From NCBI GenBank assembly GCA_947572235.1, contig CANPBB010000013.1, forward strand, positions 1 to 38,264: DNA of 38,264 bases, in the 5' to 3' direction. This document shows, piece by piece, positions 1,647 through 38,101 of the stretch (the first letter of the stretch is position 1; the number at the start of each line of letters is the position of its first letter). A program made the position numbers and the translations under genes. Origin of the DNA: an uncultured Clostridia bacterium. Its GTDB lineage: Bacteria; Bacillota; Clostridia; Oscillospirales; Oscillospiraceae. Under the pieces are notes generated by a model. The model had not been told where the DNA came from, did no database searches, and saw only the letters and a program-made list of their open reading frames with translations.

Positions 1647-2704
1647 AGACTTCCCTTTCTTGCCTCAATCGACAGACGAACGATCTCTTCACAAAGGTCC
1701 TCATAACACATTCCTGCGGCGGCGGCCTCCTTGGGCAGAAGGCTGGCAGCTGTCATTCCCGGCAGGGTGTTGATTTCCAAACACCAAGGGTTCCCCGCCC
1801 CATCCAAAATAAAATCCGTTCGGGAATACACCGTAATCCCCAACGTCTGGTGAAGCGCCAAAGCCTGCTCTCCCATCATCCGCCATTGCTCGTCGGTGAT
1901 AGGCGCAGGGCAAAGCTCCGAGGCCCCGCCGGCCTGATACTTGGCCACATAGTCAAAGTAGGCGCCGGACTTGGGGATCATCTCCACCGCCGGCAGGTAC
2001 CGGTCCCCTAAAACGCCCACTGTGATGTCCCGGCCCCGGATCTTCTCCTCCGCCACGATGTGACCGCCGTAGCGCAGCAACGCAAAGAGGGCCGTCTCCA
2101 GCTCCCCGGCGGTCTCCGGCAGAGCCATGCCAAGGGAGGAACCGCCGTTGATACATTTCACCGCGCAGGGCAATGGAATCTCCGCCGTCAAGGCGGAAAT
2201 CTCCGCTTCGGTGTATGTAATCTCCCGCCAAGAGGGGGTGGGGATATGCAGCCGCTCCATCACATGCTTGGTCTGGGCCTTATCCATGGCCATGGCAGAG
2301 CTGAGATACCCCGCCCCGGTGTAGGGGATGCCCAAGAGGTCAAAAGCAGCCTGCACCCTGCCGTCCTCGCCGCAGGCGCCGTGGAGGGCCAAAAACACGA
2401 TGTCCGCCAAGGTGCATATCTCCAGCACATCCCGGCCGAAAAGGCTGGCGCCTCCCCCCCGCCGCTGGGCGCGGACTGCCGTCAGATCTGGCTCCTGCTC
2501 CCCCAAGCTCCCCTCTTGGATCAGGCCATCGGGGGCATCGAAGAGAACAGAGAGATCCCCCACTCGCTCCTCCACCCCTAAAAACATATCCACCAGCACA
2601 GCCCGGTGGCCCCGCCGGCGCAGCGCCCGGCAGATCTCCCGTCCAGAGGCCAAGGAGACATTCCTCTCCGGGGAGAGCCCGCCGCACAGCACGACAATTT
2701 TCAT
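1643..2704 (-). CDS. ddl: D-alanine--D-alanine ligase
   Basis: An ATP-grasp ligase that joins two D-alanines; the dipeptide is the substrate of the MurF encoded immediately downstream. Motifs seen are LCGGLSPERNVSLASG at the N-terminus, LHGACGEDG, DKAQTKHVM, GGSSLGM, and the metal-binding TDFILDGAGNPWCLEINTLPGMT near the C-terminus (written here as two adjoining motifs: TDFILD and EINTLPGM). The FDYVAKY stretch keeps the tyrosine typical of D-Ala-D-Ala ligases rather than the features of VanA-type D-Ala-D-Lac enzymes, so no vancomycin-resistance role is inferred. The start at 2704 (MKIVVLCGG) is preferred over an upstream in-frame ATG because GGAAGGGG lies six bases before it. The stop overlaps the murF start. 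Confidence 0.95.
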   Translation of the reverse strand: MKIVVLCGGLSPERNVSLASGREICRALRRRGHRAVLVDMFLGVEERVGDLSVLFDAPDGLIQEGSLGEQEPDLTAVRAQRRGGGASLFGRDVLEICTLADIVFLALHGACGEDGRVQAAFDLLGIPYTGAGYLSSAMAMDKAQTKHVMERLHIPTPSWREITYTEAEISALTAEIPLPCAVKCINGGSSLGMALPETAGELETALFALLRYGGHIVAEEKIRGRDITVGVLGDRYLPAVEMIPKSGAYFDYVAKYQAGGASELCPAPITDEQWRMMGEQALALHQTLGITVYSRTDFILDGAGNPWCLEINTLPGMTAASLLPKEAAAAGMCYEDLCEEIVRLSIEARKGSL

Positions 2705-2759
2705 AGAGCACCCCTTCCTGCACGGGGAGAGGCCCCGCAAACATAATCAATTAGAGTAT

Positions 2760-2788
2760 AGTATATCATCCTTCCATGGGAAATACAA
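2760..2788 (-). promoter_or_regulatory. Sigma-A-type promoter for ddl-murF
   Basis: On the minus strand, TTGTAT (2788-2783) is followed after 17 bp by TATACT (2765-2760). The predicted transcript starts about 50 bp before the ddl ATG. It lies between the terminator of the upstream gene and ddl, so the cell-wall pair has its own promoter. Confidence 0.7.
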
Positions 2789-2799
2789 CCAGAACGGAC

Positions 2800-2830
2800 A
2801 AAAAAACAACACCGGGGAAAATCCCCGATG
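2800..2830 (-). terminator. Rho-independent terminator of the HExxH gene
   Basis: Read on the minus strand, a 9-bp stem (2830-2822 with 2818-2810, one G-T pair, three-base loop) is followed within a few bases by a run of T (2806-2800). It separates the HExxH gene from ddl. Confidence 0.75.
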
Positions 2831-2913
2831 CTGTTAAGCCTATAAAGATGCATACACATGTCAGCAGGTGCGAAGAGCCGACATATCCTCCCGTCTAAAA
2901 TACCGCCGTCATT

Positions 2914-3711
2914 TCAGGCAAAACACTCAAACGGAGTGCGGGACTTCTGAAGATTCATCTCCGTCTGCTCCTGCTCCTGCTGAGGATTGGCCTTGGTCGT
3001 GGTGCGGGTGGTGCCGCCGGAGATAAACACATCGCCGCACTCAGGACAGATATCCGTGTGCAGTGTCACAGACTGCTGCACCACTCTGCGGTCCTCCCGC
3101 TGGGCCTTGGCCTGCTCCCGAACCACATGCTCCATCTCGTGGCCGCGGACAGCGGAGGCCGCCTGCTCCGGGGCGATGTTGGTGGGATTCTTGAAGGAAA
3201 CGCCGGGGTCATCAGACCCGTCTTGGTACTTACGGTTCTTGCAGGTCTGACACTCAGCCTCCTCCATCACCTCTTGGGCGGACTTGGCCTCCTCCTCGGT
3301 CCGGAGCGCATTTTGCGCCTCCTCAGAGAAGGGGAATGTCTTCCTCTCCCCCTCCTCCATCCGCTTGCCGGCCATCGCCTGACGGCTGTCCCGGCCAATG
3401 TTCACCAGCTCTTGGAACTCCTCCCCGGTGAGCGTGCGGATGCGGCCCCGGATGGCCATCTCCGCCGGATCAGTCCCCTCCCGGAGGGCGGGCAGGGTCA
3501 AAGCGGACTGCGCAGACGGAGCGGCTTGCTCGCCGGGATAGACTGCGGCGGCGGACCAAGGACTTCTGGCACCGGCGGTGGGTGCCTGAACGGCCTTGGC
3601 CGGCTGGACCGGCTCCACGGGGAGGTTGGCCTTCCCGGTAGGGGCGGCGTAGGTGCGCAGGGCATAGGGATTCTTATATGTCTGAGTGGAGAATGAGATG
3701 GCACCAATCAT
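2914..3711 (-). CDS. Putative zinc metallopeptidase-like protein with HEMEH and two CxxC motifs
   Basis: 265 residues. The first ~130 are low-complexity, rich in Ala and Pro, with no signal peptide or membrane segment. The C-terminal half carries CQTC at 154-157, a RKYQDGSDDPGVSFK stretch, an HExxH zinc-peptidase signature (HEMEH, 191-195) and CPEC at 222-225, followed by SGGTTRTTTK. The layout recalls SprA-related putative metallopeptidases and a conserved clostridial hypothetical family; no substrate is known to me. The ATG at 3711 has an AGGATG site seven bases upstream. The gene has its own promoter and terminator, so it is a single-gene unit. HExxH and the paired cysteines suggest metal binding, but peptidase activity is inference. 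Confidence 0.75.
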   Translation of the reverse strand: MIGAISFSTQTYKNPYALRTYAAPTGKANLPVEPVQPAKAVQAPTAGARSPWSAAAVYPGEQAAPSAQSALTLPALREGTDPAEMAIRGRIRTLTGEEFQELVNIGRDSRQAMAGKRMEEGERKTFPFSEEAQNALRTEEEAKSAQEVMEEAECQTCKNRKYQDGSDDPGVSFKNPTNIAPEQAASAVRGHEMEHVVREQAKAQREDRRVVQQSVTLHTDICPECGDVFISGGTTRTTTKANPQQEQEQTEMNLQKSRTPFECFA

Positions 3712-36249: not shown

Positions 36250-36435
36250 TTAATAGTATCTCTTGTTGCGATTCTTCCGTGCCGCCTCGCTCTTCTTGCG
36301 ACGCTTCACGCTGGGGCTCTCGTAATGCTCTCTCTTACGGACCTCGGCCAGAACGCCGGCCTTGGCACAGCTGCGCTTAAAACGCTTCAGCGCGCTGTCC
36401 AGAGACTCATTTTCCTTGACGTGAACTTCAGACAT
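36250..36435 (-). CDS. rpsU: 30S ribosomal protein S21
   Basis: 61 residues, highly basic: [20 protein letters not shown] then [16 protein letters not shown] and a Lys/Arg tail. S21 sits near the anti-Shine-Dalgarno end of 16S rRNA and is needed for initiation. GGAGGG lies about eight bases before the ATG. It has a near-consensus promoter with a ~70-nt leader that contains small hairpins (for example GCATCT/AGATGC next to the ribosome binding site), which could be regulatory. Confidence 0.97.
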
Positions 36436-36599: not shown

Positions 36600-36911
36600 T
36601 TACCGATAGCGTACCGCCGTACCATAGGCGATGACCTCCGCCGCCCCCTGCATCACCGCAGAGGAGCCGTAGCGGATGTTGATCACCGCATCCGCTTGGA
36701 GAGCCTCCGCCTCGTCCACCATACGCTTCACGGCGATCTGACGGGCCTCGTTGAGCATCTCGGTATAGCCAGTGATCTCACCGCCCACCAGCGTTTTCAT
36801 CCCCGCCATAAAATCCTTACCTAAGTTCTTAGACTGCACCACAGTCCCCTTTACAATCCCCAGCACCTCAAACTCCCGTCCGGGGATATAGTCAATATTG
36901 ATCAGCAGCAT
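36600..36911 (-). CDS. YbjQ/UPF0145 family protein
   Basis: 103 residues, soluble. IPGREFEVLGIVKGTVVQSK at the N-terminus, GGEITGYTEMLNEARQIAVKRM and DAVINIRYGSSAV are the hallmarks of YbjQ, a small oligomer-forming family annotated as heavy-metal binding on weak evidence. It is the last gene of the MerR operon. The start at 36911 (MLLINIDY) lies inside the tail of the preceding gene, whose GAAGGAGGAGAA codons serve as its ribosome binding site; a longer in-frame start at 36935 lacks a site. No clear terminator follows before the rpsU promoter. Confidence 0.92.
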   Translation of the reverse strand: MLLINIDYIPGREFEVLGIVKGTVVQSKNLGKDFMAGMKTLVGGEITGYTEMLNEARQIAVKRMVDEAEALQADAVINIRYGSSAVMQGAAEVIAYGTAVRYR

Positions 36912-37146
36912 TCTGTTCTCCTCCTTCAATTTCACGAAATCTCTCTTTGACTACGACAATAGTAAACGGAATCGGAATCAGCGACAGCGCCGCCAGCAGC
37001 CCCAACAACGCCCTTCCCCAGCCGGGAAGGTCCGCCAGCACCGACAGACAGGCGCAGACTATGGCAAAGACGCCCCGCAGCAGGACAAACATCAGGGCCG
37101 TGCGGACCACCGCCCGCTTCTGCTGCGCCTCAGTACTTCCGGGCAT
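36892..37146 (-). CDS. Small two-span membrane protein with conserved EI-GGE tail (second)
   Basis: 84 residues. Two hydrophobic spans (about 17-37 and 48-70) are followed by the cytoplasmic tail ERFREIEGGEQNAADQY. The tail matches those of the neighbouring MerR protein and the other small membrane protein: R(I/L/F)(K/R)EI(Q/E)xGE, then acidic or polar residues, and a final Tyr. The start at 37146 (MPGSTEAQQKR) overlaps the previous gene by 17 bases and uses its tail codons (GGGGAGGAAGAGG) as ribosome binding site; the longer frame to 37173 is rejected. No known family recognised. Confidence 0.8.
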   Translation of the reverse strand: MPGSTEAQQKRAVVRTALMFVLLRGVFAIVCACLSVLADLPGWGRALLGLLAALSLIPIPFTIVVVKERFREIEGGEQNAADQY

Positions 37147-37393
37147 CCTCTTCCTCCCCTCCCTGGATCTCACGCAGGCGCTGGCGCAGGGCGGCCAAGA
37201 TCCCCACCACCACCGCCAGACCCATGAGGGCGTAGAACCCCAAAATCGCTCCTGTCAGCAGGCTGGCACTGCCCGCGCCCAAAATCCCCGCCCCGACGGT
37301 CAGCACCACCAGCAGCATCGCCCCGGTCACCACAGCGGCCGACGCCACAGCCCCCCGCTTCTTCCTGTCAGTATGGTCAGTATTGTTTCGCAT
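37130..37393 (-). CDS. Small two-span membrane protein with conserved EI-GGE tail (first)
   Basis: 87 residues: a basic N-terminus, two hydrophobic spans (about 14-38 and 42-66) and the tail QRLREIQGGEEEDARKY. It is a likely paralogue of the membrane half of the upstream MerR protein, from which it differs mainly by lacking the DNA-binding part. Start ATG at 37393 overlaps merR by 17 bases; GGAGG six bases upstream is part of the merR GEEED codons. Function unknown; it may pair with the MerR membrane helices. Confidence 0.8.
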   Translation of the reverse strand: MRNNTDHTDRKKRGAVASAAVVTGAMLLVVLTVGAGILGAGSASLLTGAILGFYALMGLAVVVGILAALRQRLREIQGGEEEDARKY

Positions 37394-38027
37394 CCTCTTC
37401 CTCCCCCCTCTGAATCTCCTTGATCCGCTGGAACAGGGCCAGCAGCACCCCTAAGAGGATTGCCCCCGGAATGGCCATAAACACCGCCAGCAGCGGCAGG
37501 GGCGGCGCCTCCGCTGGGTCTGTGAAGTAGCCCCAGAGCATCATGGCGATCAGCGCCACCATCAGCGCGCTGACCAGCACCGCCATCACCACGGCCCCCG
37601 CGTAGCGCACAGGCTTCGCGTCCTGACGCTGCCGGTTCTCAAAGGTGGTCCCCGTCTGTTCCATCCGCTCCATCTCCTCCAAAAGCGCCCCGGCGTCCAG
37701 AGCGTCCATGCGTTCCTCCCGCTCCTTCAGCCGGCGGCAGAGCTCCACAGACTGTTCCAAGCTGCGCTGCTCCCGCTCCAGTGTAATCAGATGCCGCCGC
37801 ATCCCGTCGGCCACAGTGTAGACACCAGACTGCATCTGACGGATCTCCTCAATCGGCAGACCGATCTTCCGAAGGAGCTTGATCCGCCGAAGAACCTCCA
37901 CCTCCTCCTCGCCGTACTCCCGGTAGCCGTTCAGCCCCCGCCGGGGACTGAGAAGCCCCTGCTCCTCATAGAAGCGTATGTTCTTGACCGTGATCCCCAC
38001 CGCCTGCTCCACCTCGTGAATCTTCAC
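37377..38027 (-). CDS. Membrane-anchored MerR-family regulator
   Basis: 216 residues. The N-terminal MerR helix-turn-helix and wing (IHEVEQAVGITVKNIRFYEE, then GLNGYREYGEEEVEVLRRI) are followed by a long dimerisation coiled coil (about 70-125). Instead of a ligand domain there are two membrane helices (about 143-167 and 177-199) and the tail QRIKEIQRGEEEDAKQY. The start is a GTG at 38027 with AGGAGG eight bases upstream; an ATG at 38072 would overlap the -10 of its own promoter and is rejected. It heads a four-gene operon and probably controls it. Confidence 0.88.
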   Translation of the reverse strand: MKIHEVEQAVGITVKNIRFYEEQGLLSPRRGLNGYREYGEEEVEVLRRIKLLRKIGLPIEEIRQMQSGVYTVADGMRRHLITLEREQRSLEQSVELCRRLKEREERMDALDAGALLEEMERMEQTGTTFENRQRQDAKPVRYAGAVVMAVLVSALMVALIAMMLWGYFTDPAEAPPLPLLAVFMAIPGAILLGVLLALFQRIKEIQRGEEEDAKQY

Positions 38028-38070
38028 GATCTCTTCCTCCTTTCTCTCATCCATTTCCTGTTCCGCGTTC

Positions 38071-38101
38071 ACTCTACACCCTCCATAAGGGGGAAGGTCA
38101 A
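38071..38101 (-). promoter_or_regulatory. MerR-type promoter with 19-bp spacer and dyad
   Basis: On the minus strand, TTGACC (38101-38096), 19 bp, TAGAGT (38076-38071). The overlong spacer contains ACCTTCC and GGAGGGT as an inverted repeat, the arrangement MerR proteins twist to activate transcription. Transcription would start near 38064, 37 bp before the GTG. Confidence 0.78.

Follow-up and report, generated by a model that had tools for sequence, protein, structure and literature searches.

A two-helix membrane protein and YbjQ as a candidate membrane signaling unit, fused to a MerR-type regulator in a clostridial operon

Four coupled genes on the minus strand (38027-36600) of the window, the 38,264-nt stretch of DNA analyzed here, encode a MerR-type regulator that ends in a two-helix membrane hairpin (merR-2TM), two small two-helix proteins, and YbjQ. 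The operon is apparently autoregulated, and the same C-terminal tail ends all three membrane proteins. We propose that a two-helix/tail protein and YbjQ make up a small membrane signaling unit, which is fused to MerR in this operon and in which YbjQ would bind the tail; on the sequence comparisons described below, we regard this proposal as evenly poised between right and wrong. A sequence-only reading of the same DNA had described an operon of a membrane-bound MerR, two small membrane proteins, and YbjQ with a common tail. Indeed, the open reading frames, the tails, and the two hydrophobic helices ahead of each tail are all present, with membrane helices called by hydropathy only rather than by TMHMM. 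That reading missed the overlap between every tail and the beginning of the following gene. The window apparently spans an entire contig, belonging to a draft genome of 2.6 Mb with a completeness of about 87%. The features are listed in Table 1.

Table 1. Positions of the features of the merR-2TM operon in the window
Feature	Positions	Strand	Basis or remark
MerR-type promoter/operator: -35 TTGACC, 19-bp spacer, -10 TAGAGT	38071..38101	-	Sequence
merR-2TM: MerR DNA-binding domain, dimer helix, two-helix hairpin, and tail, 216 aa	37377..38027	-	GTG start, AGGAGG upstream
MerR C-terminal membrane hairpin and tail, stop codon included	37377..37610	-	Hydropathy, charge bias, homology to small proteins
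Dual-coded merR tail/start of first small gene	37377..37411	-	Sequence, overlap comparison
First small two-helix protein, 87 aa	37130..37393	-	17-nt overlap with merR
Dual-coded first-small tail/start of second small gene	37130..37164	-	Sequence, overlap comparison
Second small two-helix protein, 84 aa from ATG	36892..37146	-	17-nt overlap with first small gene
Dual-coded second-small tail/start of ybjQ	36892..36926	-	Sequence, overlap comparison
ybjQ, 103 aa from ATG	36600..36911	-	PF01906; 20-nt overlap with second small gene

The merR-2TM product contains a MerR winged-helix DNA-binding domain, matching PF13411 at 6e-19 and PF00376 at 1.1e-11 in a Pfam profile search. Its C terminus matches no effector or metal-binding family above the cut-off in Pfam or NCBIfam and carries the hairpin instead; the soluble effector domain varies within the MerR family, and its absence does not disqualify the protein from membership. 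YbjQ gives a full-length match to PF01906 (2.1e-36; 125 bits against a curated cut-off of 23), the single match in the draft genome at its completeness of about 87%. For the two small proteins, Pfam and NCBIfam gave no family match above the cut-off. The start of merR is most likely GTG 38027, which has a good ribosome-binding site and a full-length alignment with 30 relatives. The tails quoted in the sequence-only reading were exact, but its starts were slightly long, and its MerR start at 38072 falls inside the promoter -10 element. We assign the starts of the second small gene and ybjQ to ATG 37146 and ATG 36911, respectively. A short open reading frame after ybjQ (36250-36435, minus strand; gap of about 165 nt), which we take to resemble ribosomal protein S21, is probably separate from the operon.

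The closest named relative of the window MerR, at 96% identity, is from an Oscillospiraceae MAG, and further named relatives are found in Lawsonibacter, Flintibacter, and Colidextribacter; from these names we take the class to be Clostridia. A CueR-like metal-sensing MerR was considered and rejected; CueR gives the best NCBIfam score, but at 50 bits against a 147-bit cut-off, and the helices replace the metal domain. A match of the MerR profile to WRB/CAML (E about 1e-5), which spans a coiled coil and membrane helices, was taken as compositional. No plasmid match was found at 1e-20, and five viral contigs match MerR in its DNA-binding part only.

The 19-bp spacer of the candidate promoter holds an interrupted dyad, ACCTTCC/GGAGGGT. 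A dyad within a long promoter spacer is the typical layout of the MerR family. The promoter pattern has one match in the window against zero expected, a count that is not independent because the pattern was derived from these same sites. In a motif scan run without a chance control, 43 of 45 loci have TTGAC followed by a half-site resembling TTCC ahead of merR (TTCC in 41, TTCT in L036, and TTTC in L041), and the remaining two (L026 and L029) have no such site. The 19-bp spacer was scored in 38 of the 45 loci, and five have another spacer or -10 element. The presence of TTGAC and the half-site in 43 of 45 loci suggests that the DNA-binding part of merR-2TM is probably functional and the operon autoregulated. 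The earlier description of this MerR as membrane bound is supported, and the gene has a MerR-type promoter of its own.

A MerR match that reaches the tail is present in 34 of 200 genomes of the family (in two of them the match appears interrupted by a stop codon, and in one it starts at a contig edge). Across 391 genomes of the class, tail-reaching MerR matches occur only in the window's own genome and in two of another family (E up to 1e-25). The ybjQ gene lies downstream of merR-2TM in 45 of 45 loci (42 parsed loci plus L066, L079, and L080), all of which were retrieved with MerR or module queries rather than with YbjQ; L047, cut at a contig edge, was left out. Many of the loci are related and some may represent a single genome sampled two times (the proteins of L008 and L022 are identical), and the counts are not independent. 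Small genes are found in 28 of the 42 parsed loci, the gene picker having missed that of L029, and are an optional expansion of the operon; in the other 14 loci, merR runs straight into ybjQ. The recurrence beside MerR and YbjQ that the sequence-only reading had asked about is thus seen in a profile search. That reading had left room for a local accident, with the tail absent from homologues or the small genes not conserved, and the module instead recurs.

The number of small genes differs between close relatives. In L011, five lie between merR and the last module (2243-3701), one of them encoding a larger multi-helix protein (2752-3219). In L031, an unrelated open reading frame separates merR-2TM from the small genes, and the MerR tail is nonetheless kept. 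Six loci (L009, L011, L012, L014, L016, and L018) contain a 192-aa frame in which a tail-less two-helix module is open into YbjQ. An internal ribosome-binding site and ATG were seen in five of the six, and the pN/pS of the linker is 1.03, indicating no protein-level constraint. With an unconstrained linker, these frames carry little weight as a Rosetta-stone fusion.

Charge bias around the hairpin (K+R of 3.2 before, 0.1 between, and 2.5 after the helices) predicts that both ends of the module are cytoplasmic (N-in/C-in). The outer loop between the helices has a median length of 14 aa, and by hydropathy and loop length no extracytoplasmic sensor domain was seen in the hairpin proteins. Profiles of the modules were compared after removal of the last 17 residues, with 60 column-shuffled controls; four small proteins fitting neither class and the larger multi-helix proteins were left out. 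The match probability is 96.4% between the MerR hairpin and the first small family and 93.8% between the first small family and the second, with none of 60 controls reaching the score in either case. The match between the MerR hairpin and the second small family is weak at 5.7%, yet again no control of 60 reaches its score. Duplication of the membrane module within the operon, as proposed from the sequence alone, is well supported by these tail-free comparisons.

We also compared the modules with a family of standalone two-helix proteins. In tail-free form, similarity to this family is weak for the MerR hairpin (6.5%; 0/60 controls reach the score), and the first small family matches it at 30.6% (0/60) and the second at 2.5% (one of 60 controls above). 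The full window modules, tail included, match the standalone profile A4 at 1.6e-8 for the MerR hairpin and at 2.9e-6 and 2.0e-5 for the other two. Descent of the modules from a standalone two-helix protein is likely, resting mainly on the tail, the topology, and the position. Relative to L008, Ka/Ks is 0.22 for the first small gene and 0.64 for the second. Over eight pairs, small-gene values range from 0.12 to 1.26, with 14 of 16 under 0.7; ybjQ values range from 0.01 to 0.24, one pair including a joined two-helix frame.

The two-helix/tail and YbjQ unit extends beyond the fusion with MerR. Of 101 family genomes, 34 have a match to the module profile (17 of the MerR form, 10 standalone, and 7 weak), and no genome matched both the MerR and the standalone forms. 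All 10 standalone loci adjoin ybjQ, nine of them with a 20-nt overlap; four standalone proteins tested match no Pfam or NCBIfam family above the cut-off. The last module of the window shares with the standalone proteins the profile match and the 20-nt overlap with ybjQ. YbjQ is found in 129 of 391 class genomes at 147 places. The survey covers 130 of these, leaving out 13 longer or cut matches together with the window, L071, L079, and L080, all four of which carry the two-helix/YbjQ arrangement. Without MerR, 39 of the 130 loci have a two-helix open reading frame that ends in a related tail and shares exactly 20 nt with ybjQ; four have another spacing, 86 have no two-helix frame, and one is at a contig edge. 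A two-helix neighbor occurs beside 0 of 53 MIITTT-type YbjQs in these 130 loci and beside 41 of 68 of the VNT/VNI type, leaving 27 without one.

At the level of the phylum, the module profile matches in 26 of 348 genomes. Leaving the window aside, there are 25 phylum module loci: the 20-nt overlap is present in 13, two have another spacing, in three YbjQ is close by without following directly, and seven have no YbjQ in the locus. The tail is kept in L223 and L231, which have no YbjQ in the locus, and L237, L242, and L246 have a weak module match near ybjQ, not directly upstream. A further 130 phylum YbjQ loci were taken from among the matches listed, with some already-seen loci left out, and the 20-nt overlap occurs in three of them (L287 being the same place as L235). 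By subtype among the matches listed, 20-nt overlaps and two-helix frames at other spacings number 0/88 and 7/88 for TTT-type YbjQs, 1/20 and 4/20 for the VNT/VNI type, and 2/22 and 3/22 for other types. The seven TTT-type cases are exceptions to the separation by subtype. It is in the class of the window that the 20-nt arrangement is most frequent. YbjQ itself is present in 10 of 14 control genomes.

The unit also occurs with a second output. In L234 and L239, which belong to one family and come from two of its three genomes examined, the two-helix/tail protein starts with a zf-HC2 domain (3.3e-9 and 2.2e-12, respectively), a sigma-70 region 2/4 gene lies upstream, and ybjQ overlaps the two-helix/tail gene by 20 nt. 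An ECF sigma gene next to a zf-HC2 membrane anti-sigma factor is the usual pairing; L234 and L239 couple the unit to this output, whereas the window has MerR instead. No further zf-HC2 case was found by a motif test among the 130 phylum YbjQ loci listed. The MerR fusion in the window and the zf-HC2 fusion behind an ECF sigma gene indicate that the two-helix/tail and YbjQ unit is joined to two unrelated predicted transcription outputs.

Like CueR, CadR, BmrR, and MtaN, the window regulator has a winged-helix DNA-binding domain and a dimer helix, and it shares with MerR regulators the dyad in a long promoter spacer; sequence matches of the MerR profile in the PDB include CueR, CadR, Mta, and BmrR. 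Those regulators have a C-terminal ligand or metal domain, whereas merR-2TM has the hairpin and tail. By Pfam and hydropathy, merR-2TM fits the definition of a transmembrane transcription regulator (TTR) given in PMC10269533, a single chain with a DNA-binding domain and one or more predicted membrane regions. That survey counts 50,302 membrane-bound regulators with over a hundred DNA-binding domain types, among which MerR may be included, and lists BcrR with bacitracin resistance (PMC10269533). The window regulator shares its one-chain design with TTRs including BcrR and CadC/ToxR and differs from them in its MerR-type DNA-binding domain and in having YbjQ and copied small hairpins as partners. 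ToxR and CadC combine an OmpR-type winged helix with an extracytoplasmic sensor, in contrast to the MerR domain and short outer loop found here. Co-component systems such as VtrA/VtrC and ToxR/ToxS comprise a membrane-tethered transcription factor and a partner from the neighboring gene, which in several systems overlaps that of the factor (PMC9214523). The window has this layout as well, but the partner described there is a periplasmic lipocalin-like sensor, as opposed to the two-helix proteins and presumably cytoplasmic YbjQ of the window.

Solved YbjQ/UPF0145 (PF01906) relatives of the window protein are 1y2i, 1vr4, and 2gtc. YbjQ relatives form pentamers with a DUF1471-type fold, which RcsF also resembles, according to PMC4092069. 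In Clostridioides difficile, whose YbjQ type may differ from that of the window, a UPF0145 protein is listed as "down" under fidaxomicin (PMC6262375) and among the cross-linked partners of a cyclophilin (PMC6459899). No accepted YbjQ function was found in the literature searched. The earlier statement that no system of this make-up had been described holds in that no MerR/YbjQ or two-helix/YbjQ system was found among the best-ranked papers of the open-licence PMC literature; it fails for the wider class, since TTRs are described (PMC10269533).

In the mechanism that we propose, the operon would encode a membrane-bound one-component regulator in which a MerR domain and dimer helix sit on a two-helix hairpin with a short charged tail. 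The two-helix/tail protein would be the membrane partner of YbjQ, recruiting it through the cytoplasmic tail. In this lineage, a MerR output domain may have been grafted onto that partner, and the membrane part of MerR may then have been copied into one or more small proteins. The trigger would be a change at the membrane, such as a hydrophobic compound, the lipid state, or loss of YbjQ binding, which would reach the MerR dimer by way of either the hairpin or the complex with YbjQ. The dimer would then remodel the 19-bp-spaced promoter and turn the operon on, raising the supply of YbjQ and its membrane partners; some genera would also make an ABC exporter. The earlier suggestion of YbjQ as a tail-binding partner retains circumstantial support from the fixed 20-nt overlap, from tails kept in non-adjacent genes, and from the unit without MerR, although binding itself is a prediction. 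A broader version, which we offer more tentatively as a possibility short of even chances, is that the two-helix/tail protein and one subtype of YbjQ make up an unrecognized plug-in membrane signaling unit of Clostridia and their relatives. In it, a YbjQ oligomer would read its membrane partner via the tails, the unit would be wired either to MerR or to an ECF sigma/anti-sigma pair, and the tail would serve as both a protein ligand and a translation-start signal.

The DNA of each tail doubles as the translation start of the following gene, supplying its ribosome-binding site, its start codon, and its opening codons; the genes overlap by 17 nt at merR/first small and first/second small and by 20 nt at second small/ybjQ. 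One frame reads as a glycine-glutamate-aspartate tail, and the shifted frame reads as ATG and the first residues of the next protein. The tail could be no more than a ribosome-binding site and a start codon read as amino acids, with translation coupling fixing the DNA and no function in the protein, a reading that we consider unlikely. It agrees with the ybjQ junctions, where the tail is a shifted reading of the ybjQ start and both frames are conserved (identity of 0.67 in the tail frame versus 0.76 in the ybjQ frame over 26 distinct junctions, and 0.79 versus 0.91 in class loci), and with L094, where the overlap is 4 nt and the tail is lost. The other junctions speak against it. The tail frame is conserved at a mean pairwise identity of 0.75, versus 0.40 for the next-gene frame, at 17-nt junctions (35 distinct) and at 0.82 versus 0.43 at 20-nt junctions with a downstream start other than that of a normal-length ybjQ (21 distinct); the junction sequences are related, but this relatedness is common to both compared frames. 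Further, the tail is kept without gene overlap in L046 (14 nt apart), L074, and L188 (109 nt apart), in G754, where the tail gene and ybjQ lie about 4 kb apart on opposite strands of the same contig, and in G611, where they lie on different contigs of a draft genome. These non-overlap loci were checked letter by letter, and some other "non-overlap" rows of the comparison, such as those for L018, L019, and L029, are gene-picker artefacts. In overlapped loci with Asn, the fifth ybjQ codon is AAT in 35 of 35, preserving the terminal tyrosine of the tail, whereas the Asn codon is AAC in 14 of 25 other loci. The advantage of the tail frame at non-ybjQ junctions indicates that the tail is conserved as protein, beyond a coding by-product. 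The frame comparison and the non-adjacent tails rule out a pure coding artefact as the whole story, and the dual coding is real. The tail is absent from some two-helix neighbors of YbjQ (L094, L206, L261, L275, L328, L334, and L339) and is thus not essential everywhere.

Signal reception may also lie elsewhere than in the YbjQ complex. The hairpin itself may sense a membrane-active compound, as BcrR does, with YbjQ and the small proteins being only stress or efflux target genes; we give this reading a modest chance, better than that of the coding image and below that of the broader version above. The lack of an extracytoplasmic domain and the 14-aa median loop favor it, as does an ABC ATPase gene after ybjQ in 8 of 14 loci without small genes (L045 had 63 nt in view), given that MerR and membrane-bound regulators often control exporters. 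The exporter ATPase genes are those of L037, L038, L039, L041, L042, L043, L048, and L049, and a permease-like open reading frame follows in those loci read further. However, no ABC ATPase follows ybjQ in any of 28 loci with small genes, with 66 to 2467 nt beyond ybjQ in view, and many loci lacking MerR still link the two-helix/tail gene with ybjQ, which makes a direct two-helix/YbjQ partnership likely. Least probable in our estimation is that the hairpin only tethers MerR and the operon to the membrane for in-place synthesis of membrane proteins and passes no signal. All window products except YbjQ are predicted membrane proteins and their translation is coupled, as such a tether would have it, but the link to YbjQ in 45 of 45 loci and the zf-HC2 anti-sigma fusion would be left unexplained.

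For the proposed signaling unit, a fixed membrane partner and two separate transcription-control fusions would lead to the hypothesis that some YbjQs act in membrane signaling. If this is true, a MerR with a bare membrane hairpin joins the membrane-bound regulators. The tails are also a clear-cut example of one stretch of bases that encodes a protein tail and a translation start, in front of different downstream genes. For three of the tail-less two-helix proteins (L261, L328, and L334), the overlap with ybjQ is only 4 nt, and in two of these cases the YbjQ is of the TTT type; these proteins are perhaps another form of YbjQ partner.
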